Below the pieces are notes generated by a model. That model was not told the DNA's origin. It did not search any database and was given only the letters and a program-made list of their open reading frames with translations. The translations under genes were made by a program, and so were the position numbers. A stretch of 64,000 nt of DNA from Alistipes sp. (GTDB lineage: Bacteria; Bacteroidota; Bacteroidia; Bacteroidales; Rikenellaceae). The DNA lies in NCBI GenBank assembly GCA_017399485.1, contig JAFQCA010000021.1, positions 62,001 through 126,000 of the forward strand, read 5' to 3'. Below are positions 7,622-48,596 of this stretch, piece by piece; the stretch's first letter is position 1, and each line of letters opens with the position of its first letter.

Positions 7622-7643
7622 TTCTTTATCTCTTATTAAAGGT

Positions 7644-8252: not shown

Positions 8253-8262
8253 ATTCTACCTC

Positions 8263-8886
8263 CTATTTTTCCTGCAAATCCTTGTTAAACGAACGGTGTA
8301 CCCAGATGATTACACCTACAATAATAAGAGCCATCGGCGGGAAGAGCATAATACCTACGTTTGAGTAGAAACCACCGTTGGCGATATACCAACTCTCAGG
8401 GATGATTCGAATATCGAACAATGTGCCCGAACCGAACAACTCACGGAAGAAGGCTACGATAAGCAAAATAGCAGCATAACCCAAACCGTTACCAATACCA
8501 TCGAGGAATGAATCCCAAGGTTTGTTACCCAAAGCATAGGCCTCCACACGACCCATAATAATACAGTTGGTAATAATAAGACCGACGTATACCGACAACT
8601 GTTTTGACACATCGTATACGAAAGCCTTCAAAAATTGGTCAACCAAAATTACCAACGCAGCAATAACAACCAACTGAACGATGATACGAATGCGCGAAGG
8701 AATACCATTACGCAAAAGTGACATCACCAAGTTAGCGAATGCTGTAACGACCATAACTGACAGACCCATAACAAATGCGGGCTCCATCTTTACAGTCACC
8801 GCCAAAGCCGAACAAATACCCAAAATCTGAACGATTACAGGGTTGTTTGAACTCAGCGGTCCGGTTAAATTTTTCAAATTACTCAT
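8263..8886 (-). CDS. nqrD: Na+-translocating NADH:quinone reductase subunit D
   Basis: A 207-aa membrane subunit with six predicted helices. It has cysteine motifs matching those of NqrE (ILGICSALAV near residue 22; ITNCIIMGR near residue 110), which bind the FeS centre shared by NqrD and NqrE. It sits between nqrC (14 bp) and nqrE (10 bp), consistent with one transcript. Confidence 0.97.
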   Translation of the reverse strand: MSNLKNLTGPLSSNNPVIVQILGICSALAVTVKMEPAFVMGLSVMVVTAFANLVMSLLRNGIPSRIRIIVQLVVIAALVILVDQFLKAFVYDVSKQLSVYVGLIITNCIIMGRVEAYALGNKPWDSFLDGIGNGLGYAAILLIVAFFRELFGSGTLFDIRIIPESWYIANGGFYSNVGIMLFPPMALIIVGVIIWVHRSFNKDLQEK

Positions 8887-8900
8887 AGTTCCGCTTGTTT

Positions 8901-9590
8901 TTATTTGTTAGACTTATTAGCATTAAAATAGGGACGATAATTGTCAAGACCTGACTGAAGCATTGCATTAACACCGTCGCAAGTCTTAGTACCTCCAGAG
9001 ATAGCATCTACCTCGTGATTATTTGTAGCACCACCCTTACGCATAGACACCGATACGAAATTATCGCCTTCGAAGATTGTCTTACCAACGAATGAAGACT
9101 GTACCTTTGATGTAGTAATCTCGGCACCCAGACCCGGAGTCTCACCAGAGTGGTCCATAACGATACCCTTAACGGTATTCATATCGGGCTCAAGTGCGAT
9201 ATAACCCCAGATGGGGCCCCACAAACCGGCACCGTAAACGGGAACTACAACACAACCATTATTTGCCTTAAAGATAGGATACTCACCAGCGTCAAATGAT
9301 GCTGTCAAATCACCCAAAGCCGAGAAAATGTCGGCATCGGTCTTACCCTCAATCTTCTGACCGTTCTTATCGAGCATTACGGCCTCAGCCACAACGTCTG
9401 AATAAGAGGCTGTAGCAGGGTCCTCACCCAAAGCCTTAACAATCTGCTGACGCTTCTCGTTAAGGATGTTCTCGCCCTGACGCTCCTGCAACGAGAGCGA
9501 CGTAACAGCCAACAGAACAGCCACGATTACTACCATCACTACCGAGTAGATGATGATATATACATTGCTATTTACATTAAATTTTGCCAT
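8901..9590 (-). CDS. nqrC: Na+-translocating NADH:quinone reductase subunit C
   Basis: A 229-aa subunit with one N-terminal membrane helix (about residues 9-31) and a periplasmic FMN-binding domain. The covalent flavin site follows the Dxx(S/T)GATx(S/T) pattern and reads DAISGGTKT near residue 200, so the usual Ala is Gly while the acceptor Thr is kept. The flavin is normally attached by ApbE, which is not in this window. The gene has the standard position between nqrB and nqrD. Confidence 0.97.
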   Translation of the reverse strand: MAKFNVNSNVYIIIYSVVMVVIVAVLLAVTSLSLQERQGENILNEKRQQIVKALGEDPATASYSDVVAEAVMLDKNGQKIEGKTDADIFSALGDLTASFDAGEYPIFKANNGCVVVPVYGAGLWGPIWGYIALEPDMNTVKGIVMDHSGETPGLGAEITTSKVQSSFVGKTIFEGDNFVSVSMRKGGATNNHEVDAISGGTKTCDGVNAMLQSGLDNYRPYFNANKSNK

Positions 9591-9599
9591 ACTCTCTCG

Positions 9600-10724
9600 T
9601 TATTTTACAGTTTTAATACGACTCTTACGACGATTGATGTTTGCCTCTACAACGAAGTAATCAATTGTAGGAGTCAATGCATTCATAAACAGGATAGCCA
9701 ACATCATACCCTCGGGGTAAGCGGGGTTCACAACGCGAACCATAACAGCCAACGCACCTGTCATAAAGCCAACGATATACTTACCAACGTTAGTCTGTGC
9801 TGAAGTTACAGGGTCTGTAGCCATAAATACTGCACCGAATGCGAAACCACCAACCAAAAGGTGATAGTAAGCAGGATAATCAGTAGCGCCAACAGCCTGG
9901 AACAAATAACCCATAGCCAAACCACCTACAAATACGCTCAACATAGTACGCCAAGAGGCAACACCTGTCCAAAGCAGGAACAAACCACCCAACAAGATGC
10001 AGAGTGTAGAGGTCTCACCAAATGAACCGGGGATAAAGCCGAGGAATGCATCCATCACGCTCCACTGCATCTGGCCTGTTGTTGCCAACTGCTCCAAAGC
10101 GGTAGCACCAGTTGTAGCGTCAGTAGCACCCATCATCTTCCAATCAGAGAACCAAACCTTCTCACCTGACATCTGGGGAGTAAATGCAAAGAATACAAAT
10201 GCACGTGCAACAAGAGCAGGGTTAAACACATTCATACCTGTACCACCGAACACCTCTTTTGCAAAGATTACAGAGAAGGCAACACCCAAAGCAACCATCC
10301 ACAACGGAGTGCTGACGGGCATAATCATAGGAATCAAAAGACCTGTTACCAAATAACCCTCGGCAACCTCCTCCTTACGGATTTGTGCATAAGTAACCTC
10401 AATACCCAAACCTACGATATATGATACGGCAACCATAGGAAGCACGCGTACCAAACCGTAAATCAAAGCATTAAAGCCTTCCAAACCAACCTGCAAACCT
10501 GTATTGAAGCAACCAAACAAGAAAGCAGGGATAAGAGCCAAGATTACCATCGTCATTGTACGCTTGATATCGTTACAATCGCGGATATGCGCACCCTTCT
10601 TGGTGGTAATATTAGGAACAAAAAGGAATGTTTCGAAAGCATCGAATGTAGATGCAAGGAAACTCAACTTACCGCCCTCCATAAAGGTCGGCTTGATATT
10701 ATCAACTAATTTTCGCAATCCCAT
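9600..10724 (-). CDS. nqrB: Na+-translocating NADH:quinone reductase subunit B
   Basis: The ATG at 10724 (protein opens MGLRKLVDN) is preferred over the GTG at 10733 because an AAAGGAG ribosome binding site lies at the right distance. The start codon overlaps the region just before the nqrA stop, so the two genes are translationally close. The 374-aa membrane protein carries a covalent-FMN motif TTGAT near residue 195 and multiple helices homologous to RnfD. It forms the main sodium path with NqrD and NqrE. Confidence 0.97.
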   Translation of the reverse strand: MGLRKLVDNIKPTFMEGGKLSFLASTFDAFETFLFVPNITTKKGAHIRDCNDIKRTMTMVILALIPAFLFGCFNTGLQVGLEGFNALIYGLVRVLPMVAVSYIVGLGIEVTYAQIRKEEVAEGYLVTGLLIPMIMPVSTPLWMVALGVAFSVIFAKEVFGGTGMNVFNPALVARAFVFFAFTPQMSGEKVWFSDWKMMGATDATTGATALEQLATTGQMQWSVMDAFLGFIPGSFGETSTLCILLGGLFLLWTGVASWRTMLSVFVGGLAMGYLFQAVGATDYPAYYHLLVGGFAFGAVFMATDPVTSAQTNVGKYIVGFMTGALAVMVRVVNPAYPEGMMLAILFMNALTPTIDYFVVEANINRRKSRIKTVK

Positions 10725-10726
10725 AA

Positions 10727-12082
10727 CTAACACTCCTTTATCATTAAGTTAATACCGTCACGAACCAACTGCTGAATCTCGGTCTTTGAGGGGTCTACGA
10801 ACTCACAAAGAGCAACATCCTCCTCGACAATCTCGTAGATACCGAGGTTCTCCATCTTGTCGATATCGTTAGCAATAATTGCCTTGAACAGATACATAGG
10901 ATAGATATCCATCGGCAGATACTCCTCAAACAAACCTGTTACAACAAATGCGCGAACACCGCCATTGAGGTTGGTATCGAGTTTGTACTCCTTCTTCGGG
11001 CAGAGCCAAGAGAAGTATGAGCGTGATACCGAGAACTTATTGAAACGAGGAGCAATCCAGCCCAACATCTCATACTTATCGCCCTCAGGAATAACAGTAA
11101 TTTGAGTCGCAGTAGCGCTGATAAAACCATCGGCAGCAACCTTCTTACCTGTAAGCACGTTACCTGAAATGATACGAACTGTATCACCCTCAGCCTGAGC
11201 CTTGATATTACCAGCAACGATAGATGCTACGGGAGCACCGCTGATGATACGGTAATATTGAGGTTTCTCAACCTCGCTACCTGTCAAGGCAACAACCTTG
11301 TGCAAATCAACCTTGCCGGTTGAGAACAAGCGACCAATAGCGGCTACATCCTGAATTGCTACTGTCCAAGCGATATCGCCCTTTGCGATTGGGTCGATGT
11401 GGTGAATCTGAACACCTACACAACCTACGGGGTGCTTACCCTCGAAGGTGTGAATCTCAGCGCCCTTGAGTGAAGTCATCTCGCCCTCAGCCTTAGCCTT
11501 AACAGAGAGGTGAACCTTTCCGTTAGAGAGTTTTGACAACACCTCAAGTCCCTTCTGCAAATTCTCCTTCTCGCCCTTGAGTGCGAAGTTCATATCAGCA
11601 GCCAAAGGTGCTGAATCGAATGCAGAAACGAAAATAGCCTTTGGCTCGTCAGCAGGATTTGCCACAATACCGTAGGGACGCTGAAGAATCATTGTCCACA
11701 AACCCGACTTGAGCAAAGTCTCGATAACCTCTTCGCGAGTAGCCTTCTGCAAGTCAAGCAGAGCAAACTCTGCCGACTCTTGCTGGGCATCGGCAGCAAC
11801 TGTTACGTTGAGAATCTTACGCTTCTCACCACGATTAACAGCCGACACGGTACCGCTTACGGGTGAAGTAAACAACACGCGAGGATTGTTCTTATCGAAG
11901 AACAAAGGCTCACCTGCCTTCACCTTGTCGCCCACCTTCACCAACAATTTAGGAGTCACGTTCTCAAAATCCAGCGGCGATACGGCATACTCGGCAGCCA
12001 ATGGCAACTCTACCAAAGACTCCGCAGCCTTACCCTGAAGATTGATGTCGAGACCCTTCTTTAGTTTAATGATTTTCGACAT
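10727..12082 (-). CDS. nqrA: Na+-translocating NADH:quinone reductase subunit A
   Basis: The start is ATG 12082 (MSKIIKLKKGLDINLQGK), the conserved N-terminus of NqrA. The open frame upstream to 12223 runs through the promoter region and is not family-like. The 451-aa peripheral subunit contributes to quinone binding with NqrB. It is the first gene of the six-gene operon, with a -7-like box at 12191-12198, giving a 5' leader of roughly 100 nt. Confidence 0.97.
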   Translation of the reverse strand: MSKIIKLKKGLDINLQGKAAESLVELPLAAEYAVSPLDFENVTPKLLVKVGDKVKAGEPLFFDKNNPRVLFTSPVSGTVSAVNRGEKRKILNVTVAADAQQESAEFALLDLQKATREEVIETLLKSGLWTMILQRPYGIVANPADEPKAIFVSAFDSAPLAADMNFALKGEKENLQKGLEVLSKLSNGKVHLSVKAKAEGEMTSLKGAEIHTFEGKHPVGCVGVQIHHIDPIAKGDIAWTVAIQDVAAIGRLFSTGKVDLHKVVALTGSEVEKPQYYRIISGAPVASIVAGNIKAQAEGDTVRIISGNVLTGKKVAADGFISATATQITVIPEGDKYEMLGWIAPRFNKFSVSRSYFSWLCPKKEYKLDTNLNGGVRAFVVTGLFEEYLPMDIYPMYLFKAIIANDIDKMENLGIYEIVEEDVALCEFVDPSKTEIQQLVRDGINLMIKEC

Positions 12083-12190
12083 AGATTTGTAATTAATTTG
12101 AATGAATTTTATGTAATTTGTGTGTGTTATTCCATTTGCAGTTTTACGACGAGTTCCGTCCAATAAAACGACCTTCGTTAAAAACGCGCA

Positions 12191-12198
12191 CGAAGGTA
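12191..12198 (-). promoter_or_regulatory. Probable -7 box of the nqr operon
   Basis: The minus strand reads TACCTTCG, one base from TAnnTTTG, about 110 bases upstream of nqrA. No clear -33 box was found. Confidence 0.5.
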
Positions 12199-12271
12199 CG
12201 ATTTTTTTTGCACTTTTTGGCACTATTTAGGTTATTATTTTTATTTTACCGTAAAATTTATTATTTTTCTC

Positions 12272-34619: not shown

Positions 34620-36743
34620 TTATTTAAGGCCCATAGACTCAACCAAAGCCTTTGTTTCGGGCTTGTGGCCACGGAACTCCACATAAATATCCATAGGATG
34701 GCGCTGTCCACCCTGCTCCAACAGATGGCGGAACGACTTTGCGGTAGGTGCATCGAAGATACCCTTCTCCTTGAAGAGCGAGAAGGCATCGGCAGCCAAT
34801 ACCTCAGCCCACTTATAACCATAATAACCCGCAGCATATCCGCCTGAGAAGATATGTGTAAACGAGGGGCTCATAGCCGTACCTTCAACCCAAGGGGTAA
34901 CCTGAACTGACGACATTGCCTCCTTCTCGAAGGGCTCTATCTCGCCCGTATAAGGTTGTTTCAAGGTATGCCAAGCCATATCTGACAAACCAAACGATAG
35001 TTGGCGCACATTGCTATAAGCAGCCAAATAGTTCTTGGCATCGACAATCTTCTGAACCAACTCGGCAGGAATAGGCTCGCCTGTCTGATAATGAACGGCC
35101 CACATATCCAGATACTCCTTCTCTACGGCCCAATTCTCCAAAATCTGCGACGGCAACTCAACAAAGTCACGATATACGCTGGTTCCATTCATAGACTCAT
35201 ACTCACCTTTGGCCAACATACCGTGCAGAGCGTGACCAAACTCGTGAAGGAAAGTGGTAAACTCATCAAATGTAAGCAACGAGGGGGTAGTCTCTGTCGG
35301 CTTAGTAAAATTCATCACAAGCGACACCAAAGGACGAGTCTCGACGCCTTCAATCACCTTTGTACCTCTAAACTCTGTCATCCACGCACCAGAACGCTTT
35401 GACTCGCGGGGGAAGAAATCGAGATAGAGGACCGAGAGCAACTCTTCTTTGCCATCAGTTGTATCGTAAACCTCATAAGCGGTAACATCGGGATGATATA
35501 CTGCAATATCCTTATTGGGAACAAACTTCAGGCCGTACAACTTCTCGGCAACCATAAATACACCCTTGATTACATTGTCCAACTTGAGGTAAGGCTTTAC
35601 CTGCTCGTCATCCAATGCATACTTCTCCATCTTGTACTTCTCGGTATAATATGCCCAATCCCACGGCATAACATCACCCTTCAAGCCCTTTGATGCAGCA
35701 TACTCGTTAATCATCGAGTAATCTTTCTTGGCATACTCCACTGTGGCATCACGCAACTCGGCCAAGAAACTATTTACCGCAGGGGCTGTCTCGGCCATAC
35801 GCTCCTCCAATACATAGTCGGCATAGGTTTCGTATCCCAACAGGTTTGCAATCTTCAAGCGCAGCGATGTGATATTGCGGATAATATCGGAGTTATCGTA
35901 CTTACCGCCCAACGCGCGAGTATTATATGCACGATACAACTGCTCCTTAATGTCACGCTGCGAAGAGTAGGTCATAAATGGAATATAACTCGGAGCCTTC
36001 AATGTAACGGTCCAACCATTTTCGCCACGAGCCTTGGCATCGGCTGCCAACGACTCCTTAACAAAAGCGGGTAACTCGGCAACCTTAGAGGCTGATGTGA
36101 TATTGATAGCAAAATCGTTGGTTGCTGACAGCGAGTTCTGGCCAAAAAGAAGTTCTGCCTCAGAGAGTTCAGATGTATATTTACGGTACGCCTCCTTATC
36201 CTCATCCGACAGTGCTGCACCCGAACGAGAGAAACTCTTATAGGTATCCTCCAAAAGTTTGATATCAACATCCGACAGACCGCGACGCGAGCCCTCATAA
36301 ACGGCCTTCACGCGCTCAAAGAGTTGCGGATTAAGGGCAATATCATTGCTCAACTCTGTCATCTTGGGCTGAATACGCAATGCTATGGCATCCATCTCAT
36401 CAGAGGTATCAGCCTCGCGCAAATTATAGAAAATACCAGCAATACGGCCCAGCAAAGCACCCTGACGCTCCATAGCCACGATTGTATTCTTAAACGTAGG
36501 TTTGGCGGGATTATTCACAATAGCGTCAATCTCGGCACGTGACACCGCGATAGCAGTCTCGAATGCGGGCTCATAATCGGTAATCTTAATCTTATCGAAC
36601 GGCGGTGTAGCATAGGGAGTATCCCACTCTGCCAACAACGGGTTCGAAGTGTCAATTTCGGGCAGCACGGCAACGGGCATAGAATCGCCAGCGCAACCTG
36701 CTACCAATGCACTGAAAGTCATCATCAATAATACTTTTTTCAT
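34620..36743 (-). CDS. M3-family metallopeptidase (Dcp/oligopeptidase-like), lipoprotein
   Basis: A 707-aa protein with a lipoprotein signal (Cys in VAGCAGD near residue 17) and the zinc motif FLHEFGHALH near residue 485. Thimet/dipeptidyl carboxypeptidase-type proteases cut short peptides, usually C-terminal dipeptides. The lipid anchor places it in the periplasm or on the cell surface. It lies 55 bp after a paralog and shares its layout, so tandem duplication is likely. Confidence 0.93.
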   Translation of the reverse strand: MKKVLLMMTFSALVAGCAGDSMPVAVLPEIDTSNPLLAEWDTPYATPPFDKIKITDYEPAFETAIAVSRAEIDAIVNNPAKPTFKNTIVAMERQGALLGRIAGIFYNLREADTSDEMDAIALRIQPKMTELSNDIALNPQLFERVKAVYEGSRRGLSDVDIKLLEDTYKSFSRSGAALSDEDKEAYRKYTSELSEAELLFGQNSLSATNDFAINITSASKVAELPAFVKESLAADAKARGENGWTVTLKAPSYIPFMTYSSQRDIKEQLYRAYNTRALGGKYDNSDIIRNITSLRLKIANLLGYETYADYVLEERMAETAPAVNSFLAELRDATVEYAKKDYSMINEYAASKGLKGDVMPWDWAYYTEKYKMEKYALDDEQVKPYLKLDNVIKGVFMVAEKLYGLKFVPNKDIAVYHPDVTAYEVYDTTDGKEELLSVLYLDFFPRESKRSGAWMTEFRGTKVIEGVETRPLVSLVMNFTKPTETTPSLLTFDEFTTFLHEFGHALHGMLAKGEYESMNGTSVYRDFVELPSQILENWAVEKEYLDMWAVHYQTGEPIPAELVQKIVDAKNYLAAYSNVRQLSFGLSDMAWHTLKQPYTGEIEPFEKEAMSSVQVTPWVEGTAMSPSFTHIFSGGYAAGYYGYKWAEVLAADAFSLFKEKGIFDAPTAKSFRHLLEQGGQRHPMDIYVEFRGHKPETKALVESMGLK

Positions 36744-36798
36744 AATTTTTATTTCGTTTTGGTTTTTTCATTAAATTTGGATTATGCTCTCGGCTTAC

Positions 36799-39090
36799 CT
36801 ACTCCACATCGGCCTCTACACGCGCCAACGAATCGACCATAGCAAGCGAGTCGGCTCGGCGGGCCGCAGCACGCTCCTGACGTGAACGCTCGGCGCGAGC
36901 ACGGGCCTGTGCGCGGGTATCTACCCTACCGATTTGCCTTATCGGCATAGGCTCTGTGGTCGCAACATCTTCTTCCTCCACCAAACCTCTGGCAACAAGC
37001 ATTGCTGTCTTGTCGGGTTCTGCACCTCTAAACGAGCGATACATATCCATACCATCACGCTCGCCACCACGCAACAAAATCTCACGGCGGAAACGCTCGG
37101 CCACTTCACGATTGAACAAATCACCGCTCTCAACAAATGCACGATGGGCATCCTTATCCAACACTTCGGCCCAGATATAGAAATAATATCCTGCTGAATA
37201 TCCGCTGTTGAATATATGATTAAAATAGGTGTAATGATAACGAGGTTCAATTTGCGAGATAAGGCCACGCTTAGTCACAAGCGACTCCTTCTCAAAAGCA
37301 TTGACATCAATCTTCTCGGCACTCTCAACAGAGTGAATATCCATATCCGACAATGCCGCTGCAACCAACTCTGTCGTAGCAAAGCCTTCGTTGAACTTAC
37401 TACTACGTTGTATGCGTTCAATCATATCGTCGGGCATAACCTCGCCTGTACGATAGTGAACTGCATACTCCTTGAGCATCTCTTGAGTGAAGGCCCAATT
37501 CTCCATAATCTGTGATGGCAACTCGACAAAATCGCCCTCAACACCACTCAAGCCCTTATACTTAACATCTGCAAACAGATTATGCAGAGCGTGACCGAAC
37601 TCGTGGAACAAGGTCTCGGTCTCATCAAGCGACAACAAGGCCGGAACTCCACCCGCAGGACGTGTAAAGTTGCAGACGATACTTACAACGGGAGGTACTC
37701 GCTCTCCATCCTTGTACGATTGGCGACGCATAGTACCGCACCACGCACCGGCACGTTTTCCAGGACGCGGATGAAAGTCAAAACACAATGCGCCCAATGG
37801 CTTATCGTCGTTATCTATAACCTCATACATCTCACACTCTGCGTGATACAACGGAGCCTGCAAAGGACGGAACGTAATGCCATACAGACGGTTGGCAAGG
37901 AAAAATATTCCACTCTTCACATTATCCAGCGATAGATATTGGCGCACCTTCTCCTCTTCCAAATCATAATCAGCCTTACGCACCTTCTCGGCATAATACC
38001 ACCAATCCCAAGACTCAAATTGGGCATCCATACCATTCTCGTGCTTGAACATTGTCGTCATACGCTTCAACTCATCCTTTGAGCGTTGGAGCGCAGGCTC
38101 CCAAACCTGATGTAGCAACTCATAGACTGCTTCGGGAGTCTTGGCCATCTGATTCGACACCACATAATCAGCAAATGTATCAAAACCCAGCAACTTGGCC
38201 TTTTCGTAGCGCAATGATATGATATCGGCAATCACCGACTTGTTATCATTTTCGTTATCATTATTTCCGCGTGCAATATACGCCTTATAGATTTGCTCTC
38301 TCAAATTACGATTATCGGCATAGGTCAGAAGAGGCAACATACTCGGCTTTTGGAGTGTAAAGGCATAGACGTTACCCTTATCCAATTTATTAGCCTGCTC
38401 ACGCGCTGCATCACAAGCCGTTTCGGGAACACCCTTCAAGTCCTCCTTATTGGCCACCTCCAGCACAAAAGCATTAGTCTCGGCCAAAAGGTTTTGACCA
38501 AACTTAACACTCAAGGCCGACAACTGCTCGTTAATTTGTTTCAAACGAGCCTTATCCTCAGCGGAAAGCAACGCGCCAGAACGCACAAAGCCATCGTAAA
38601 TCTTCTCCGTCAGGCGCAACTGCTCGGCATCAAGGCCCAAAGCATTACGTTTGTCGTATACGGCCTTAATCTTGTCGAAGAGTCTCTCGTTAAGAGTTAT
38701 AGCATCGCTATGTGCCGCACGCAAAGGGCTCAACTCGGCAGAGAGAGCCTGCATCTGCTCATTGGTCTCGGCAGAGTTGAGAGTAGAGAATACTCGGCTT
38801 ACCCTTGACAACATCTCGCCCGAATTATCATAGGCAAGGATGACATTCTCAAACGTAGGCTCCTCCTTAGACTCCACGATGGTGGCAATCTCCTCGTTCT
38901 GCAACGACATACCACGCTCGAATGCGGGTTTGAAGTGCTCAAACGCGATTCTATCAAATGGAGGCGCACCATAAGGGGTATCCCACTCGGCCTCGAAAAA
39001 TGGATTCTCACCACTCTCGGTACTCTTTTTACAGCCACAAACTGTCATAATTATCATCGCTACTGCGAATAAACGTAAAAAGCGTTTCAT
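36799..39090 (-). CDS. M3-family metallopeptidase, lipoprotein, with basic tail
   Basis: A 763-aa protein. The lipoprotein signal has Cys in VCGCKKS near residue 20, and the zinc motif LFHEFGHALHNL lies near residue 485. It resembles the downstream paralog throughout but carries an additional C-terminal tail of about 45 residues rich in Ala, Arg and Ser/Glu, absent from the paralog. The role is peptide degradation in the periplasm. A symmetrical promoter box at 39109-39124 is shared with rsmE. Confidence 0.92.
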   Translation of the reverse strand: MKRFLRLFAVAMIIMTVCGCKKSTESGENPFFEAEWDTPYGAPPFDRIAFEHFKPAFERGMSLQNEEIATIVESKEEPTFENVILAYDNSGEMLSRVSRVFSTLNSAETNEQMQALSAELSPLRAAHSDAITLNERLFDKIKAVYDKRNALGLDAEQLRLTEKIYDGFVRSGALLSAEDKARLKQINEQLSALSVKFGQNLLAETNAFVLEVANKEDLKGVPETACDAAREQANKLDKGNVYAFTLQKPSMLPLLTYADNRNLREQIYKAYIARGNNDNENDNKSVIADIISLRYEKAKLLGFDTFADYVVSNQMAKTPEAVYELLHQVWEPALQRSKDELKRMTTMFKHENGMDAQFESWDWWYYAEKVRKADYDLEEEKVRQYLSLDNVKSGIFFLANRLYGITFRPLQAPLYHAECEMYEVIDNDDKPLGALCFDFHPRPGKRAGAWCGTMRRQSYKDGERVPPVVSIVCNFTRPAGGVPALLSLDETETLFHEFGHALHNLFADVKYKGLSGVEGDFVELPSQIMENWAFTQEMLKEYAVHYRTGEVMPDDMIERIQRSSKFNEGFATTELVAAALSDMDIHSVESAEKIDVNAFEKESLVTKRGLISQIEPRYHYTYFNHIFNSGYSAGYYFYIWAEVLDKDAHRAFVESGDLFNREVAERFRREILLRGGERDGMDMYRSFRGAEPDKTAMLVARGLVEEEDVATTEPMPIRQIGRVDTRAQARARAERSRQERAAARRADSLAMVDSLARVEADVE

Positions 39091-39921: not shown

Positions 39922-41910
39922 ATGTTTTATCTCGGATTACTTCTGACACTTACTCTACTTGTAGCAGCCCTATTTATAGCCCCGCTACGAAGTAAGATTT
40001 GGGTGGCATTTACAACCGTCATAATTGCCGTTGCAGCGCTATCCTACCCCGCTATCACGGCTCTTATGACCGCACACCCCATTGTCTTGATGCAGGCCCA
40101 AGGGCCTATTTTTGGAGCAGAGAATTTAAGTATTGATTCTCTCTCGGCTCTTTTCCTGATAATCATAGGCATAGCAGGTATAGCAACAATAATCTATTCG
40201 CGAGGATATTTAGCACAATATCTCGACAAGAAATCATCGGTACACATATCATTACACTACGCGGCATTGGTGATTATGATTCTGTCGATGATGCTGGTTG
40301 TAATGTCGAGCGGAGGATTTTCGTTCCTGCTCGCGTGGGAGTTGATGACCATTGCGTCATTTATACTCATACTCTTCGATGCCCAACGAGCCGAAGTGTT
40401 GCGTGCCGCACTCGCATATCTGATAATGATGCACGTCGGATTCATATTCCTCGTAGCAGGCTTTGCCACACTTCACGCCACAACAGGCTCGGCATCGTTT
40501 GAGGCTCTTCCAATAGCGTTTGGTCAAGGCAAAACGATTCTGCTATTTGTGTTATTCTTATTGGGCTTTGGAATGAAGGCCGGATTGTTCCCTATGCACG
40601 TCTGGTTGCCCGAAGCACACCCCGCGGCACCGTCGCACGTATCGGCCATAATGTCGGGCGTGATGATTAAGACGGGAGTATATGGTATAATGCGCGTCCT
40701 GTGGCACATCAGCAACACTCAAGAGTTACAGACCATAGGATTTATAATTCTCGCGGTTGGTGTTGTAACAGGTCTATGGGGTGTGATACTCGCCGCCTTG
40801 CAGAACGATGTCAAGAGATTATTGGCATATTCGAGCATCGAGAATATAGGAGTTATATTTATCGGTCTGGGTATTGCAACATTGGGATTAGCCGCCTCAA
40901 ACAGCATAGTAGCGACGTTGGCTCTATGCGGAGCATTATTACACATTGTAAATCACTCGCTATTTAAGACTTTATTATTCTTTGGCGCAGGAAACCTCTA
41001 TTCGCAGATGCACTCTACGCATCTTAATAGTTTTGGAGGTGTCGCCAAAAGTATGCCCGTAACGGCCATATTATTCCTGATAGCGACTGCTGCTATTTGT
41101 GCACTACCGCCACTAAACGGTTTTGTCGGAGAGTTTATGATTTATCTGGGTATGCTCAACAGCGTACGCGACGGAGTGAACACCCTGGCTGCCGCAGGAG
41201 GCATTATCGCTTTGGCCTTGATTGGAGGTATCGTGGTTTTTGCATTTACAAAACTTTATAGTACCGTATTCCTCGGCTCTCCGCGCGACCATCACGTTGC
41301 CGAAGCCGAAGAGGTTGACAATATGCGTCTGGCTGCTATGGCTATACCGACTGCAGGAATAATCATTATAGGTATCGCACCGCAGTTGGTTATTCGCGTA
41401 TTGACAAACATTGCCGACGGATTAATTCCATCGGCCACCCCCATAATTAGCGGATACATCACCCCGACTTTGGGACGTGTATCGCTCACCGCTCTGTTGA
41501 TAATAATCGTTATCGCATTGCTCTATATGCTAAAGAGTCGCGCACAGCGTTCTCGCACTATTGAACAAGGCCCGACTTGGGGTTGCGGATTCACTTCGCC
41601 AAATATTCGTATGCAATATACCGGCGAATCGTTCTCCGAGAATCTGGAGTCGATAACCACATCGCTCACGCAAAACACAGTAGAGGGACGCGCTGTAAGC
41701 AAAAGCGAAATATTCCCCTCGGCGCATAACTACCACGTGCGACACAAAGACAAGATTGACCGACTGTTTACTGAGTGGTGGGTTGAGTTATTGCGTATAA
41801 TCAACAAGCGCATAATGAGCCTGCGTACGGGTAAGATAAACCACTATATATTGTTCGCCTTATTATTCCTTGTTGCGATATTTATTCTTTCACTCTTTAA
41901 TATTTTATAA
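39922..41910 (+). CDS. hyfB: Hydrogenase-4/complex I antiporter-like subunit (HyfB type)
   Basis: A 662-aa membrane protein with about 16 helices, homologous to NuoL and MrpA antiporter-like subunits. The charged residues used for ion translocation are all present: Glu140 (LAWELM), Lys219 (GMKAGLFP), Lys250 (IKTGVYG), His341/His345 and Lys349 (HSLFKTLL). The C-terminal hydrophobic helix is preceded by a hydrophilic region (545-640). An AAAGG ribosome binding site supports the ATG at 39922. It begins a six-gene run with intergenic gaps of 2-21 bp. Confidence 0.93.
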   Translation: MFYLGLLLTLTLLVAALFIAPLRSKIWVAFTTVIIAVAALSYPAITALMTAHPIVLMQAQGPIFGAENLSIDSLSALFLIIIGIAGIATIIYSRGYLAQYLDKKSSVHISLHYAALVIMILSMMLVVMSSGGFSFLLAWELMTIASFILILFDAQRAEVLRAALAYLIMMHVGFIFLVAGFATLHATTGSASFEALPIAFGQGKTILLFVLFLLGFGMKAGLFPMHVWLPEAHPAAPSHVSAIMSGVMIKTGVYGIMRVLWHISNTQELQTIGFIILAVGVVTGLWGVILAALQNDVKRLLAYSSIENIGVIFIGLGIATLGLAASNSIVATLALCGALLHIVNHSLFKTLLFFGAGNLYSQMHSTHLNSFGGVAKSMPVTAILFLIATAAICALPPLNGFVGEFMIYLGMLNSVRDGVNTLAAAGGIIALALIGGIVVFAFTKLYSTVFLGSPRDHHVAEAEEVDNMRLAAMAIPTAGIIIIGIAPQLVIRVLTNIADGLIPSATPIISGYITPTLGRVSLTALLIIIVIALLYMLKSRAQRSRTIEQGPTWGCGFTSPNIRMQYTGESFSENLESITTSLTQNTVEGRAVSKSEIFPSAHNYHVRHKDKIDRLFTEWWVELLRIINKRIMSLRTGKINHYILFALLFLVAIFILSLFNIL

Positions 41911-41912
41911 TT

Positions 41913-42827
41913 ATGGGAATAGCACTCAACACACTACTTATGCTGATAGTTGCAATCTCCATAACAGGAGTGATTAACCGATGTCGCGCAATATTGGCTG
42001 GCCGCAAGGGTTTGCCGTTTTTTCAGCATATCTACAACGTAAGGCTACTAATGCGCAAAGGTGCAGTCTATTCGACAACAACCACTGCCCTATTCCGCAT
42101 CGCACCTGCCGTATATCTTGGCTCGGCTATCGTAGCGATTCTTTTTATACCTATTGCCGACCTCAATCCGCTCATATCGTTTGAGGGAGATGTTATATGT
42201 TTTGCTTACCTGCTGGCTTTGGGGCGTTTTGCCCTCATCTTGGCTGCAATGGATACAGGTAGTTCTTTCGAAGGTATGGGCGCATCACGCGAAGCGTTGT
42301 ATGGCGCATTAATCGAGCCTGCCATAATGGTAGGATTTGCCACATTGGCTATGTTCTGCGGTTACACCTCGTTTGCTGATATTTTTGCCCACGAACAGTC
42401 GTTCAACCTACACTTGACAATAGTTATGCTACTGACGGCATATCTATTTATTAAAATTGCATTCGTCGAGTCGGGACGCGTACCCGTAGATGACCCGCGA
42501 ACTCACCTCGAACTAACGATGATTCACGAGGTGATGTGCTTGGATTATTGCGGTATAGATATGGCGATGATTCAAATAGCAGGCTGGCTTAAAACGGCAT
42601 CACTCTCGATGCTCGCTGCAAATGCAATAGCAGCAACAGGATGTTTCCATTGGTGGTTTGCCACTCCGTTGGCCATTCTGCTTACAGGCTTATCCGTCGG
42701 CGTAGTCGAATCGACACAGGCTCGCAACAAACTTGTACGCAACACCACATTTATCGTAACCATTTCGGCATTGGCGGCTTTGATATTTTTCATAGGTTAC
42801 CTGCTGCAACTAAACATCAATATTTAA
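41913..42827 (+). CDS. hyfC: Hydrogenase-4/complex I NuoH-like membrane subunit (HyfC type)
   Basis: A 304-aa protein with eight predicted helices that docks the soluble arm onto the membrane. The conserved loop GMGASREALYGALIEPA (near residue 122) and ESGRVPVDDPRTHLELTMIHE (near residues 187-207) are intact, with the acidic residues expected along the proton path. Length and motifs fit HyfC/HycD. It sits 2 bp after hyfB. Confidence 0.93.
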   Translation: MGIALNTLLMLIVAISITGVINRCRAILAGRKGLPFFQHIYNVRLLMRKGAVYSTTTTALFRIAPAVYLGSAIVAILFIPIADLNPLISFEGDVICFAYLLALGRFALILAAMDTGSSFEGMGASREALYGALIEPAIMVGFATLAMFCGYTSFADIFAHEQSFNLHLTIVMLLTAYLFIKIAFVESGRVPVDDPRTHLELTMIHEVMCLDYCGIDMAMIQIAGWLKTASLSMLAANAIAATGCFHWWFATPLAILLTGLSVGVVESTQARNKLVRNTTFIVTISALAALIFFIGYLLQLNINI

Positions 42828-42831
42828 GAAT

Positions 42832-43461
42832 ATGGTATTAACACTCATTATATTGTACGTCATAACGCTCATATACCTATCGACGGTTGAGCGTTTCCGT
42901 AACTACGCCTCGATAATTGCGTGGCAAGGGTGGATTCTATTAGGCATCGCACTGTTGCAACTGCACACTTTGAATTGGGTGGAGTTGGGATTTGTCATAC
43001 TCGAGACACTTATATTCAAGGCCCTTGTAGTACCCGCCATATTGATGAATGTCATCAAGAAGACCAACATCAATCGCGTAAGCACATCGGGCACGTCGCA
43101 GTTCAATTCGCAGATGTTGTCAATCGCGGCACTGATAGTAAGTGCTATTACCACATATTATGTGGCCGACTCTTCGGTACATATGTTATTCTTTGGCGTT
43201 GCACTATATGCACTTTTGAGCGGACTTATATTAATCGTTCTGCGCTCGCGCATCTTTACTCACGTCGTCGGGTTCCTTGTCATAGAGAATGGTGTATTCC
43301 TATTCTCGATGGCGATTGGTGTCGAGATGCCCATATTGATTAATATGGCTATTATGCTTGATATCTTGATTTCGATTTTGATGCTCGGAATGTTCCTCAC
43401 AAAAGTTGACGATAAGATTCACGCCGACGACAGCGATTCATTAACACGCGTAAAAGACTAA
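42832..43461 (+). CDS. hyfE: NuoK-like membrane subunit (HyfE type)
   Basis: A 209-aa protein with six predicted helices. The characteristic ETLIFKALVVPA stretch near residue 60 and a Glu in WVELG are present, as expected for ion transfer in HyfE/NuoK-type subunits. Length matches the E. coli protein (216 aa). Gaps of 4-5 bp to its neighbours show operon membership. Confidence 0.92.
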   Translation: MVLTLIILYVITLIYLSTVERFRNYASIIAWQGWILLGIALLQLHTLNWVELGFVILETLIFKALVVPAILMNVIKKTNINRVSTSGTSQFNSQMLSIAALIVSAITTYYVADSSVHMLFFGVALYALLSGLILIVLRSRIFTHVVGFLVIENGVFLFSMAIGVEMPILINMAIMLDILISILMLGMFLTKVDDKIHADDSDSLTRVKD

Positions 43462-43466
43462 AGGCT

Positions 43467-44870
43467 ATGATATATTTCTACTTTTTATTATGGCTTGCCA
43501 TAGCCGCTACCACATTGGCTGCACGTTCACGTCGTGTAGTACACATTTTATGCGGATGCTATTTAACAATCCACGCGGTATTTATCGAGCAACTGCTATT
43601 TGGCGGAGAGTACCTCACGACATCGGGAATATTCTTTACGTTTGACGAGGCGGGAACGCTATTTTACATCCTGCTCGCAATAGTTGCACTATTTGTATTC
43701 TGGCACTCTGAGGAGTATCTGAAAGATGATGCGATAGAGCATTACAGATTGTATTTTTCGTTGCTGATGCTGCTTACTACAGCCATCACGGGAGTGTATT
43801 TTGCCAACAACATCGCCATTACCTGGATTCTGTTGGAGGCCACGACTCTTTGTGGTGCTGGCATACTCTACTACCGCCGCTCAAAGCCCACGCTTGAGGC
43901 AACGTGGAAATATCTGTTTGTATGTTCGACAGGTATTGCAATCGCCTATCTGGGTATTTTGTTATTGTGTGCTGCGGCAGAGAACTCATCGCTCAACTAT
44001 ACCGAACTGCAAGGCATTATAGCACAAGGTAATCCCCTCTATCTAAAGGTGGCATTTATCCTGATTCTTACGGGATATAGTTGCAAGATGGAGATTTTCC
44101 CGTTATACACCATCGGCGTTGATGCCAACTTCGCGGCCCCTGCACCTGCATCGGCTATGATATCGACAGGATTGGTGAATGCTGGATTCTTGGCTATTTT
44201 TCGCATCTATCGCCTTTTTGCCGATACTCCCGTATTCGGCTGGGTACAAAACGTGATGTTGCTGACTGGTATTTTGAGCCTTATCGTCGGAGCATTGTTC
44301 CTGCGTCGTACAAACAATTACAAACGTTTTCTATCGTACTCGACAGTCGAGAATATGGGTATCGCGGCCATCGGCTTAGGAATAGGCGGCACAGGTGTCT
44401 GGGCGGCTGTTTTCCACGTTGTTTGCCACTCGCTCATCAAGAGCAGCCTCTTCTTGCAGATTGGTATCGTGCGCCACATCTATAACGGTTACCGTATTAA
44501 CCGTATTGGAGATTATATAAACATCAACAAAGTGGGAGCAATCGGTTTGTTGGTAGGTATGGTTGTAATCTTGGCCTTCCCGCCATCACCTCTCTTTATC
44601 TCGGAGTTGATGATTCTATCGGAGACCATAACGGCGGGAGATTGGTGGCTTACGGCATTGATGATGCTTCTTATGTGCATCGTGATTTACTCGGTATGCC
44701 ACCGCGTAATAAAACTATGTTATCAGCCTAATCAGGATGAACTTCATATATCGAATATCAATCGCCGTCTATCATATAGCGCACTGATTTTGATGCTGGG
44801 CGCGATTGTTATCGGATTGTGGCAGCCCGAACCACTTAAAGCAATTATTGACTCAATTGTGAATATGTAG
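43467..44870 (+). CDS. hyfF: Second antiporter-like subunit (HyfF type)
   Basis: A 467-aa membrane protein, shorter than HyfB. It keeps the key residues Glu124 (ILLEATTL), Lys207 (SCKMEIFP) and Lys325 (HSLIKSSLF). It therefore appears able to translocate ions. There is no third antiporter-like subunit (HyfD) in this operon. A 3-bp gap separates it from hyfG. Confidence 0.92.
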   Translation: MIYFYFLLWLAIAATTLAARSRRVVHILCGCYLTIHAVFIEQLLFGGEYLTTSGIFFTFDEAGTLFYILLAIVALFVFWHSEEYLKDDAIEHYRLYFSLLMLLTTAITGVYFANNIAITWILLEATTLCGAGILYYRRSKPTLEATWKYLFVCSTGIAIAYLGILLLCAAAENSSLNYTELQGIIAQGNPLYLKVAFILILTGYSCKMEIFPLYTIGVDANFAAPAPASAMISTGLVNAGFLAIFRIYRLFADTPVFGWVQNVMLLTGILSLIVGALFLRRTNNYKRFLSYSTVENMGIAAIGLGIGGTGVWAAVFHVVCHSLIKSSLFLQIGIVRHIYNGYRINRIGDYININKVGAIGLLVGMVVILAFPPSPLFISELMILSETITAGDWWLTALMMLLMCIVIYSVCHRVIKLCYQPNQDELHISNINRRLSYSALILMLGAIVIGLWQPEPLKAIIDSIVNM

Positions 44871-44873
44871 TCT

Positions 44874-46391
44874 ATGCATTACTATATAACAAATAACACC
44901 TCAACAGAGGCTGTAGCCATCAAAGATATTCCCGAAGTGGAGTATGCTACACTTTACAACGACCTTAAGGAGCGTCTTAAGCAGGAGCAATATCACGTCG
45001 CGCACTACTTTGCCACGCCCGACGAGAACAGATTAATGTTCTATATCGTACTGCTCGACGACAAGGAGCACCAGATTATGCTGGCCCGATTTGCAATGGA
45101 GTACTACGACGATATAGCACTCCCTTCGCTGACGGCTTTACATCCTGCACTACACCCATTCGAGCGTGAAATTACCGAACTATACAACGTGCATTTCGGC
45201 TCAATGCCCTGGGATAAACCGTTGCGTTTTGCAGAGGCACGCCGTAACCGCAACTCCACAATTGACAACTACCCCTTCTACACTATCGAAGGAGAGTCGT
45301 TGCACGAAGTGAATGTAGGCCCAATACACGCAGGCATAATCGAGCCGGGTGCATTTCGTTTTATTTGTAACGGCGAGAAGGTACTGCACCTTGAGATTGC
45401 ATTAGGCTACCAACATCGTGGCGTTGAGAGTGAGTTTACCTCGACCAATAACCGTCTGCGCCAAACCCTGCTTGCAGAGAGTATAGCAGGCGATAGTGCC
45501 ATAGCACACACGTCGGCATTTGCAGCGGCGATTGAACGATTGTCGGATAATGCCATAAGCGATTCTCTCGCAACGGAACGTATCGTGGCACTCGAATTGG
45601 AGCGTATGGCTATGCATATTGCCGATACGGGAGCATTATCGATGGACGTAGGATACCAACTCGGCCAAGTTGCTTGCGAGGCACTGCGCACGATGACCAT
45701 CAACACCACACAGGCGTGGTGTGGCAACCGTTTCGGTAAGGGACTTATCCGTCCTTGCGGTACAAACAAGCCTTTGACGAAAGAGAAGGTCGAGATGATA
45801 CTCTCTAACGTAGAGCAGATTAGCCGCCGTTATGCCGAAGTAAGCGACGATATACAGAGTTCGCCCACCCTACTCTCACGTTTCGAGCATTGTGGAATAG
45901 TACCCCAAAACGAGATGCAACGCATCGGAGGCGTAGGTATGGCCGCTCGCGCCAGCGGATTGCTTCGTGATATACGCTCTTCACACCCGTGGGGCGCCTA
46001 TAACACAGAGCCTCGACACGACTCTTGCACAATGCACGATGGTGATGTTATGTCTCGCCTGAAGGTACGATGCGAAGAGGTACAACAGTCGGCACAGAGA
46101 ATAAAATCGTTGCTTGAAGGATACACCACATCGGAGAAGCACCTGCGCCCCGATTATGAGTGTAACCTCAAGCCCAGCCACCTCTCATTTGGACTTATCG
46201 AGGGTTGGCGAGGCGAGATTTGCCACGTCGCACTGACCGATGACAAAGGCCAGATATCGACCTATAAAATAAAGGAGCCAAGCCTTCATAACTGGCTGGC
46301 ATTAGCATTGGCTGTTCGTGGCGAGGGCATTTCGGACTTCCCGATTTGCAATAAGAGTTTCAATCTCTCATACTGCGGTCACGACTTGTAA
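44874..46391 (+). CDS. hyfG: Fused NuoC/NuoD-like large subunit lacking NiFe ligands (HyfG type)
   Basis: A 505-aa protein. Residues 1-125 are NuoC-like (ALHPFEREITELYNV), and the rest is the NuoD/hydrogenase large-subunit fold (GPIHAG at 149; YQHRGVE at 179). At the first metal motif the CxxC of hydrogenases is AGDS (205-208), and at the C-terminal DPCxxC the aligned positions are Asn497, Leu498, Ser499 and Gly502. All four nickel-iron cysteines are missing. It is therefore an Ehr-type protein and not a hydrogenase. No processed C-terminal extension follows. Confidence 0.93.
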   Translation: MHYYITNNTSTEAVAIKDIPEVEYATLYNDLKERLKQEQYHVAHYFATPDENRLMFYIVLLDDKEHQIMLARFAMEYYDDIALPSLTALHPALHPFEREITELYNVHFGSMPWDKPLRFAEARRNRNSTIDNYPFYTIEGESLHEVNVGPIHAGIIEPGAFRFICNGEKVLHLEIALGYQHRGVESEFTSTNNRLRQTLLAESIAGDSAIAHTSAFAAAIERLSDNAISDSLATERIVALELERMAMHIADTGALSMDVGYQLGQVACEALRTMTINTTQAWCGNRFGKGLIRPCGTNKPLTKEKVEMILSNVEQISRRYAEVSDDIQSSPTLLSRFEHCGIVPQNEMQRIGGVGMAARASGLLRDIRSSHPWGAYNTEPRHDSCTMHDGDVMSRLKVRCEEVQQSAQRIKSLLEGYTTSEKHLRPDYECNLKPSHLSFGLIEGWRGEICHVALTDDKGQISTYKIKEPSLHNWLALALAVRGEGISDFPICNKSFNLSYCGHDL

Positions 46392-46412
46392 AAAGAAAAA
46401 GAGTTTAAGATT

Positions 46413-47186
46413 ATGATATTTCCAAAGATAAAAGTTCTACACTCACACGGCTGGCAATACATCCCCGACCTTAACGATGTGACGCTCACCGAAGAGTTTC
46501 GCGGGCGTCCCGAACTGACAGTCACAGAAGATATGGCAGATGTAGAGGCTGCGGCAAAATTATGCCCTACGGGGGCAATATCTGTGGCACCATTTACTCT
46601 CGATTTGGGGCGTTGTCTATTTTGTGGAGAGTGTGCCCTGCGAGCGCCGCGCAACATCCGCTTTACGAATGATTACAAGGTAGGCTCTACTTCTCGCGAA
46701 GCACTTGTCGTAACCCCAGAGACAAAGCAAATTGACTTCCATAAAGAGTTGGTACGCAAGGAGATTCCACAACTATTCTCTCGTTCACTCAAACTGCGAC
46801 AAGTATCTGCCGCAGGTGATGCATCTATCGAGATGGAGTTGAACGCTACGGGAAATGTGAATTTCGATTTCGGACGTTACGGCGTAGAGTTTACAGCCTC
46901 ACCACGCCATAGCGACGGCGTGGTTATCACAGGGCCTATATCCAAGAATATGGCCGAGCCATTGGAGATATGTTATGCTGCAATACCTGAGCCGAAGATT
47001 ACAATCGTTTGTGGTTCGGAGGCTTGTTCGGGCGGATTATTCAGTCAAAGCAAGGCTATCGACAGGAGTTTCCTGCAGCGTCATCACGTCGATTTATGGC
47101 TGCCCGGTGCACCGACACATCCGATGACATTTATTGATGCTGTGATGAATCTTATAGGCAAAAAACAACGACAAGGCAACCAATAG
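46413..47186 (+). CDS. Fused ferredoxin/NuoB-like FeS subunit with reduced cluster ligands
   Basis: A 257-aa protein equal to HyfH (ferredoxin) plus HyfI (NuoB). In the ferredoxin part, motif 1 keeps only Cys51 (CP), the other three positions being Met41, Val44 and Ala47. Motif 2 keeps Cys68, Cys71 and Cys74 but has Ala78 before the proline. By 2[4Fe-4S] ligand geometry this makes exactly one cluster. In the NuoB part, the first pair of N2 cysteines is replaced (the GDASIEME region, 135-142), PGCP is PGAP (231-234), and the third site is Glu203, flanked by Cys200 and Cys205. Confidence 0.88.
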   Translation: MIFPKIKVLHSHGWQYIPDLNDVTLTEEFRGRPELTVTEDMADVEAAAKLCPTGAISVAPFTLDLGRCLFCGECALRAPRNIRFTNDYKVGSTSREALVVTPETKQIDFHKELVRKEIPQLFSRSLKLRQVSAAGDASIEMELNATGNVNFDFGRYGVEFTASPRHSDGVVITGPISKNMAEPLEICYAAIPEPKITIVCGSEACSGGLFSQSKAIDRSFLQRHHVDLWLPGAPTHPMTFIDAVMNLIGKKQRQGNQ

Positions 47187-47189
47187 ACT

Positions 47190-48596
47190 ATGTTTCAGCA
47201 GATAATCGACACCGCAAACAACCTGCTTTGGGGCTATATTATGATAGCCGCACTGCTCTTTTGCGCCATATATTTTACCATACGCAGCCGCTTTGTGCAA
47301 TTTCGTATGTTGGGTGAGATGTGTCGATTACTTATCAATCCCGACCAAGATAAAGAGAGTGACTCACAGCATAAACCCAAACGAATAGCCCCCTTTGAGG
47401 CTTTTGTCATCTCGCTTGCAAGTCGTATCGGCACGGGCAATCTGGCAGGTGTGGCTACAGCCATTGTCGTGGGAGGAGCGGGTGCTGTATTCTGGATGTG
47501 GATTATTGCTCTTTTGGGAGCAGCAAACGCCTTCGTGGAGAGTACATTGGCGCAACTCTACAAACGTCGTTCTACGGATTCTTATATAGGAGGTCCTGCA
47601 TATTATATAATGTATGGTATGCGCAACAAGCCGCTTGCCATAACATTCTGCATATTGATTATCGTAACATTCGGCTTTGCATTCAATACAGTTCAAAGCA
47701 ACACTATTTGTGCGGCATTTGAGAATGCTTTCGGAATGGACAAACTATATATGGGATTGGCGCTGACCATTGCGACTCTGCTCATCATCTTCGGTGGCAT
47801 ACAACGTATAGCCAAAGTAAGTAGCATCGTTGTTCCTGTTATGGCTGTCGGATACCTCATCATAGCACTCATAGTCATAGCACTCAACATAGAGCATCTT
47901 CCGACAATACTTGCGACAATAGTCAAGAGTGCCTTCGGCATAGAGCAATTAGCGGGTGGAGGTATGGGAGCAGCCGTTATGCAAGGTATAAAACGTGGTC
48001 TGTTCAGCAATGAGGCAGGTATGGGTTCTGCACCCAATGCCGCAGCGACAGCCACGACATCACACCCCGTAAAACAGGGTTTGATACAGACATTAGGAGT
48101 CTTTACCGACACATTGATTATATGCAGTAGTACCGCATTTATCATACTTGCAAGCGGAGTCGATTTAGGCGGCAACGATGGCGTACAACTGACACAAGAG
48201 GCCCTGACTGCCGAGATTGGTGGCGCGGGCCGTATCATCGTTGCCGTTGCGATATTCTTCTTTGCATTCAGTTCTATATTCGGAAACTACTATTACGGCG
48301 AGGCCAACATTCGCTTTATAACAAAATCTAAACGCGCGCTGACAGCCTATCGCATCATCGTAGGCGCTATGGTTATGGCGGGTGCTATGATGAGCCTAAA
48401 GACGGTATGGGCAATGGCCGACGTGACTATGGGCTTGATGACGATGTGCAACCTTGCTGCCCTGCTATTTTTGGGTGGTCAAGCCATCACTCTGCTCGAC
48501 GATTACAGACGCCAACGTCGCAATGGTTGCGACCCTATGTTTTCAAAAAAATCGTTCAAGGAGTTCAGCGATAACGACGGTATTGAGTGTTGGTAG
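47190..48596 (+). CDS. AgcS-family alanine/glycine:cation symporter
   Basis: A 468-aa inner-membrane transporter with about 11 helices. The family signature lies around SRIGTGNLAGVATAI near residue 75 and SNEAGMGSAPNAAATATT near residue 271. AgcS proteins import alanine or glycine with Na+ or H+. It starts 3 bp after the FeS subunit, so it looks like the seventh gene of the Ehr-like operon. That is unusual and may link amino-acid import to the ion gradient (inference). Confidence 0.95.
   Translation: MFQQIIDTANNLLWGYIMIAALLFCAIYFTIRSRFVQFRMLGEMCRLLINPDQDKESDSQHKPKRIAPFEAFVISLASRIGTGNLAGVATAIVVGGAGAVFWMWIIALLGAANAFVESTLAQLYKRRSTDSYIGGPAYYIMYGMRNKPLAITFCILIIVTFGFAFNTVQSNTICAAFENAFGMDKLYMGLALTIATLLIIFGGIQRIAKVSSIVVPVMAVGYLIIALIVIALNIEHLPTILATIVKSAFGIEQLAGGGMGAAVMQGIKRGLFSNEAGMGSAPNAAATATTSHPVKQGLIQTLGVFTDTLIICSSTAFIILASGVDLGGNDGVQLTQEALTAEIGGAGRIIVAVAIFFFAFSSIFGNYYYGEANIRFITKSKRALTAYRIIVGAMVMAGAMMSLKTVWAMADVTMGLMTMCNLAALLFLGGQAITLLDDYRRQRRNGCDPMFSKKSFKEFSDNDGIECW

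Follow-up and report, generated by a model that had tools for sequence, protein, structure and literature searches.

A cousin of respiratory complex I found in gut bacteria related to Alistipes has intact ion machinery but only one cluster left of its iron-sulfur chain, so that one must ask what drives it. We studied such a complex in a stretch of 64,000 nucleotides from Alistipes sp. (assembly GCA_017399485.1, contig JAFQCA010000021.1, positions 62,001 to 126,000), here called the window, in which all coordinates below are counted. A six-gene operon on the forward strand (39922-47186, intergenic gaps of 2-21 bp) encodes a complex resembling hydrogenase 4 and complex I, and the open reading frames that an earlier note on this DNA had claimed are found where it placed them. 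The product has six subunits and belongs to the complex I superfamily, where it is one of the hydrogenase-related (Ehr) complexes. Its electron wire is cut, for it has lost the NiFe site, the outer ferredoxin cluster and N2, the final relay before the active site. What it retains is the entire ion path, a peripheral arm with its fold preserved, the pocket of the large subunit G and one [4Fe-4S] site. These statements about structure are far surer than what we can say about mechanism.

The cut is seen in subunit I (46413..47186, 257 aa; Oxidored_q6 9.5e-17), a ferredoxin-like domain fused to a NuoB/HycG-like domain. In ferredoxins, three cysteines at the start of the second motif join the last one of the first motif in binding one cluster. 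By this rule C51, C68, C71 and C74 (codons within 46563..46634) are the complete ligand set of the second ferredoxin cluster, at the N6b position next to N2 in complex I, and all four are present in 60/60 of the relatives compared first and then in 99/99 distinct relatives. The four former N2 ligands fall by alignment on D136 and I139 (46818..46829), E203 (47019..47021) and A233 (47109..47111). Cysteines occupy the N2 places in only 17 of the 99 distinct sequences, which we call wired; in the other 82, called unwired, N2 is lost. Position 136 of the unwired sequences is D in 80 and E in 2, position 139 is variable, position 203 is D in 52, E in 29 and A in 1, and position 233 is N in 50, A in 23, T in 8 and a gap in 1, so that a carboxylate stands at two of the former cysteines in 82/82 (136) and 81/82 (203). 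The first, outer ferredoxin cluster is also lost, its stretch holding 0 or 1 cysteine in every unwired row. The earlier view that the redox sites are lost is therefore right where N2, the outer ferredoxin cluster and the NiFe ligands are concerned and wrong for the second [4Fe-4S] site, whose four invariant cysteines rule out a total loss. Since the ligands of this one cluster are retained everywhere, an electron-accepting or sensing site may remain. The fold has been kept as well, as the AlphaFold2 model of I (pLDDT 91.7) matches chain 7z0t_G of formate hydrogenlyase over residues 115-254 with a Z of 15.2 at 2.2 A.

Subunit G (44874..46391, 505 aa) is a NuoC-NuoD/HycE-like fusion (Complex1_49kDa 3.8e-29; HycE chain 7z0s_E 5.3e-34) with its nearest relatives, at 60-89% identity, in Alistipes and other Rikenellaceae genomes. 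Its NiFe ligands are missing. The former first NiFe motif, CGIC in hydrogenases, now reads A-G-D-S/T (A205-S208, 45486..45497), with D207 in 62/62 aligned sequences and in 124/126 of a wider set, two rows of which are outliers gapped at the tail. The former second motif is the C-terminal tail N493-L505 (NKSFNLSYCGHDL, 46350..46388), with at most one cysteine in place; in the alignment of 62, positions N493, K494, S495, S499, Y500, G502 and D504 are each found in 62/62, and the motif is nearly identical in two wired relatives (L177, L178). The AlphaFold2 model of G (pLDDT 88.7) matches 7z0s_E with a Z of 38.8 over 481 aligned residues at 2.9 A, the low-confidence parts being loop 150-157 and the final three residues. 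A new cluster held by the cysteines C165, C450, C501 and C283, all invariant in the first 62 sequences, was considered and dropped, as C450 is kept in 96/126 and C501 in 103/126 of the wider set.

The membrane arm is encoded by the first four genes. B (39922..41910, 662 aa; Proton_antipo_M 6.6e-54) is a HyfB/NuoL-M-like antiporter subunit that scores 522 bits against the hydrogenase 4 subunit B model, under that model's cut-off, and F (43467..44870, 467 aa; Proton_antipo_M 2e-35) is a HyfF/NuoN-like one. C (41913..42827, 304 aa; NADHdh 9.3e-25) is HyfC/NuoH-like, with subunit 4 of formate hydrogenlyase (7z0s_D) as its best match at 2.1e-21, and E (42832..43461, 209 aa) is HyfE-like, matching the hydrogenase 4 membrane subunit at 2.5e-11, below cut-off. 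The claim that these subunits keep the residues that move ions, and that the loops of C and E are intact, holds throughout the family: aligned relatives carry E140, K219 and K349 of B in 67/67 cases and K298 in 66/67, E124, K207 and K325 of F in 69/69, and E58, K63 and E152 of E in 70/70, and in C the glutamate-rich charged loops are conserved among 68 sequences, with 47 positions kept in at least 67/68. The charged residues of the path align with their counterparts in MBH, formate hydrogenlyase and MBS chains. Plasmid records supply the most distant relatives, among them wired, half-wired and unwired ones, and even there these residues are largely retained; the exceptions are K250 of B, which is N in several rows, K298, which becomes R or A, E58 of E, which only the core family keeps, and the loops of C, which differ in Burkholderia and Mycobacterium rows. 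In this remote alignment the L205 rows for F and E and the N-terminus of I from L206 stem from poorly chosen reading frames, and those L205 rows are misaligned. The whole genome has two matches to the antiporter domain PF00361, B and F only, thus no second complex I or Mrp of such type is seen in it. NuoE, F and G, the NADH module, are absent from the operon and its next neighbours, the remaining genome not having been searched for them.

A separate observation on subunit B is that 10/40 Bacteroidales loci (L083, L086, L087, L089, L090, L093, L095, L101, L102 and L104) have a tandem pair of B genes before C, thus these complexes may hold three antiporter-like subunits. In another genome (G057) G stands alone on one contig (C32, locus L066) and I lies on a second (C10:23008-23754, locus L153), thus the operon there seems split.

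Selection has preserved more than ion movement. As had been proposed, the ion path is kept in a complex whose electron route to the active site is interrupted, and this state is old and conserved. The further idea that the constraint lies on the membrane arm is not borne out: in the least saturated pair dN/dS is low in the soluble subunits too (G 0.049, I 0.041, versus 0.014-0.043 for B, C, E and F), and both have many invariant residues. Synonymous changes are close to saturation in several pairs, and not in L036-L040. Purifying selection is thus seen on every subunit.

The unwired state can be placed by comparison with wired relatives, which share the operon and the pocket without NiFe ligands. 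In the first set of 71 I proteins two (L078, L080) carry all eight ferredoxin cysteines and all four of N2 with a G of the same kind. Among 395 genomes drawn from the phylum, I has 15 full-length matches including the window; the window and one other genome (G303) are unwired and 13 are wired in N2, three of which have lost cluster I only. Among 393 genomes of the order, 89 have a match at E <= 1e-30. Trees of G, C and F together, built with FastTree on 84 rows and with IQ-TREE in quick mode on 53 of these (near-identical rows omitted), place unwired rows among wired ones, with the wired state on deep branches and at least three label changes, two of them forced by well-supported branches, which points to several independent losses. 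Five loci were left out of the FastTree tree, three with the operon partial on the contig (L066, L091, L094) and two cut at a contig end (L074, L045). Gene-order labels were blurred at some GC-rich loci by long overlapping reading frames, and the proteins were re-extracted. The branching order of L165, L078/L080 and the two large unwired groups is unsettled, thus the main loss in Bacteroidales may be one event or two. A separate branch contains wired L177 and L178 together with L179, whose I has no ferredoxin domain and has D, C, D, D at the N2 places. Two more unwired members, both from the plasmid records treated next, have cluster II complete and cluster I lost: Allomeiothermus silvanus, with T, D, E, S at the N2 places, and Mycobacterium branderi, with N, D, D, A. 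An acid is therefore found at position 203 in three further unwired lineages (D in L179 and M. branderi, E in A. silvanus).

A search of plasmid records gave 244 matching records, and 12 picked by hand from the matches of this and two further searches were examined. Those of Burkholderia, Caballeronia and the first copy of Variovorax are fully wired; those of Rhizobium, Bradyrhizobium, Cupriavidus, Azospirillum, Rhodococcus and the second Variovorax copy have N2 without a fused ferredoxin domain; a Streptomyces record has three of the four N2 cysteines. A tree of G with 39 rows, in which the complex separates from two NiFe-bearing homologues, requires at least five changes of N2 state and at least four of the label of cluster II only, with several long branches that make the exact places unsure. 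The wiring thus changes often, whereas the pocket and the ion path are kept. Nor has the remainder of the complex altered along with the wire, as few positions show a fixed difference between 14 wired rows and the unwired ones: two each in G, E and I (those of I both in the N2 loop), one each in C and F, and none in B.

Two observations from these records stand apart. Plasmid 3 of Variovorax sp. PBL-E5 (L197, L201) carries two complete Ehr-like operons about 3 kb apart, one with the ferredoxin clusters and N2, the other with N2 only and no fused ferredoxin domain. The operons L198, L199 and L208, from Burkholderia and Mycobacterium, form a branch of their own; their G ends in a different tail (EASFGL..), and genes annotated DUF190 lie next to them. 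In Burkholderia the neighbours also include genes annotated as a dynamin family protein and an inorganic diphosphatase.

Among known systems the complex fits the Ehr group by its subunits and its ligand loss, the trees built here containing no named Ehr reference such as one from Geobacter. Ehr complexes are group 4 relatives without Ni- and Fe-binding residues (PMC6349859), as are those of CPR bacteria (PMC7304191). The subunit kinds are the same and the large subunit has lost the same residues; here N2 and the outer ferredoxin cluster are lost as well, which the consulted parts of these two papers do not mention, and a search of the open-access literature, with subscription literature outside its scope, gave no description of hydrogenase-related complexes without N2. 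Group 4 NiFe hydrogenases differ by the four cysteine ligands in two CxxC-type motifs that are not present here. Formate hydrogenlyase and hydrogenase 4 (Hyc, Hyf) give the best structural matches for G and I but have NiFe ligands, two ferredoxin clusters where our complex has one, and an N2-type cluster. MBS is a complex I relative that lost a working NiFe site (PMC7684303) but, unlike the complex described here, it retains the catalytic proximal cluster. Mrp has similar antiporter-like subunits with conserved Lys and Glu, and such a membrane part can exchange ions without redox chemistry (PMC7419157), but Mrp has no peripheral arm (PMC7684303), whereas a full one (G, I) is encoded here. With respiratory complex I, finally, B, C, F, G and I are homologous; the differences are the missing N2, an operon without the NADH module and changed quinone-ligand positions.

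Our preferred answer to what drives the complex, held tentatively and with somewhat less than even confidence, is that it is a cation/proton transporter with Mrp-like exchange, whose peripheral arm gates it and contains no electron wire. Cations and protons would be exchanged as in Mrp, and no electron would travel along the arm into the pocket. The state of the axis of charged residues would be set from the conserved pocket of G, by a proton or a ligand lying beside the carboxylate pair that replaces N2. The arm would in this way serve as a gate for the ion path, and the lone cluster would either sense the redox state of ferredoxin or hold the arm together. In favour of this are the loss of N2 in most relatives with two carboxylates kept in its place, the acids that recur at position 203 in other unwired lineages, the invariant ion residues, the retained folds, the few differences between wired and unwired rows, the purifying selection on every subunit, an operon that stands by itself among varying neighbours, and the example of Mrp. 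Complex I that has lost N2 is still an assembled enzyme, yet inactive as a quinone reductase (Hameedi et al., PMC8042128). Electrons are thus unlikely to pass from arm to pocket here, and it is this result that leads us to prefer an unwired exchanger over a redox enzyme with another route and over a reaction in the pocket like that of DAB. Several points weigh on the other side. Pumping driven by redox chemistry needs the ion-path residues just as much. A cluster II that served as nothing but scaffold would be odd, and its invariance allows a remaining redox role. Wired forms are 2/71 of the first set of I proteins and 13/14 of the full-length matches outside the class. An enrichment of the menaquinone route, described next, fits a quinone as ligand or acceptor.

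The complex could still be a redox enzyme, which we regard as unlikely but with appreciable weight. Ferredoxin or flavodoxin would reduce cluster II, and the electron would go either to an acceptor near it or, by a metal ion held by D136 and E203, to a substrate in the G pocket such as menaquinone. The cluster II ligands that are never lost across 99 distinct sequences speak for this, as does a G pocket almost identical in wired and unwired forms. A menaquinone route (MenD or MqnA/D over cut-off) is present in 39/42 genomes with the complex versus 28/38 others, with a p of 0.03 that ignores kinship; counting a split MenD in one genome (G005) raises the 39 to 40 and gives a p of 0.01. The genome of the window itself has two VitK2_biosynth genes of the MqnA/D type (C2:112967, C44:235) and no MenD over cut-off, thus its menaquinone is probably made by the futalosine route. 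Set against a redox enzyme are the variable N2 positions 139 and 233, which leave no fit for an ordinary [4Fe-4S] cluster, and the loss of quinone reduction in complex I that lacks N2. In addition, the positions that we take to be the quinone ligands of complex I, H38 and Y87, fall by alignment on I156 and G206.

Less probable again, and in our view quite improbable, is a non-redox reaction in the G pocket that the membrane arm couples to ion flow, as DAB does with CO2 hydration. The motifs A-G-D-S/T and NKSFNLSYxGxD of G are nearly invariant despite the absence of NiFe, and DAB2 sets a precedent for non-redox catalysis driven by the proton motive force on a NuoL-like subunit (PMC13144422). 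However, the same pocket is found in wired relatives, where electrons can reach it, and a reaction of this kind is also hard to match with the surroundings of the operon, which stands alone among neighbours that change across Bacteroidales loci, with no constant metabolic neighbour.

The earlier note had hinted at a link to amino-acid uptake, with the complex building up or drawing on a cation gradient that serves the alanine/glycine:cation symporter AgcS. This symporter is not part of the complex; its gene lies at 47190..48596 on the same strand (Na_Ala_symp 5.4e-158) and starts, as the note said, 3 bp past the last subunit. This copy is the only AgcS of its genome. Counting the window, agcS adjoins the complex in 13/33 Rikenellaceae loci, and on the tree of these loci the adjacency changes at least twice. 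The adjacency is not general: it occurs in 0/40 loci of other Bacteroidales. Among 21 Rikenellaceae genomes searched, the four with the adjacency have one AgcS copy each; the 17 without it comprise 13 with no AgcS match, 3 with a clear copy elsewhere and 1 with a marginal match. The complex is therefore present in genomes without an AgcS match and works without AgcS, which is optional cargo, a neighbour limited to one clade. These counts weaken the hint to a very improbable reading and lead us to reject AgcS as a functional partner. Least credible of all is a decaying, functionless remnant of a hydrogenase-like complex, which the stepwise loss of cofactor sites might suggest but which we reject on the low dN/dS in all subunits, the 17-106 conserved positions in each and the persistence of the complex in 62/207 sampled Bacteroidales genera.

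Returning to the gated exchanger without an electron wire, its meaning could extend beyond this genome. How a redox step near N2 is coupled to distant ion movement in the membrane is a long-standing question for complex I. It is conceivable, though we think it doubtful, that an entire class of complex I relatives runs without the wire, which would have been cut several times in separate phyla, with an acid replacing the third N2 cysteine each time and the pocket and ion machinery unchanged. In that case the machine would have redox transfer not at its core but as one input that can be swapped for another, and two carboxylates at the place of N2, whether free, protonated or metal-bound, could take over the switching role of N2 in complex I. 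Because its wired, half-wired and unwired members share a pocket and an ion path, the family supplies matched pairs for asking what the arm does when electrons cannot reach it. There is also a caution for annotation, in that the genes of this complex in gut bacteria should not be named hydrogenase 4 or NADH dehydrogenase.

Some results concern the surroundings of the operon. The Na+ pump Nqr had been pointed out in the same window, and its subunits A-F are indeed present on the opposite strand (6359-12223). As evidence for a partner this does not stand: nqrF is over cut-off in 28/42 genomes with the complex versus 32/38 without it, a difference in the opposite direction (p 0.08), and Nqr was rejected as a partner. 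Promoter and terminator scans gave matches not above those in shuffled sequence (15 vs 17.4 and 9 vs 8.6), so they neither support nor oppose a single transcript with agcS. On the reverse strand at 34620-39090, two adjoining genes encode large proteins with the motif HEFGHALH, which we label peptidase-like from the motif alone; they lie before rsmE, and their place is kept across Rikenellaceae.

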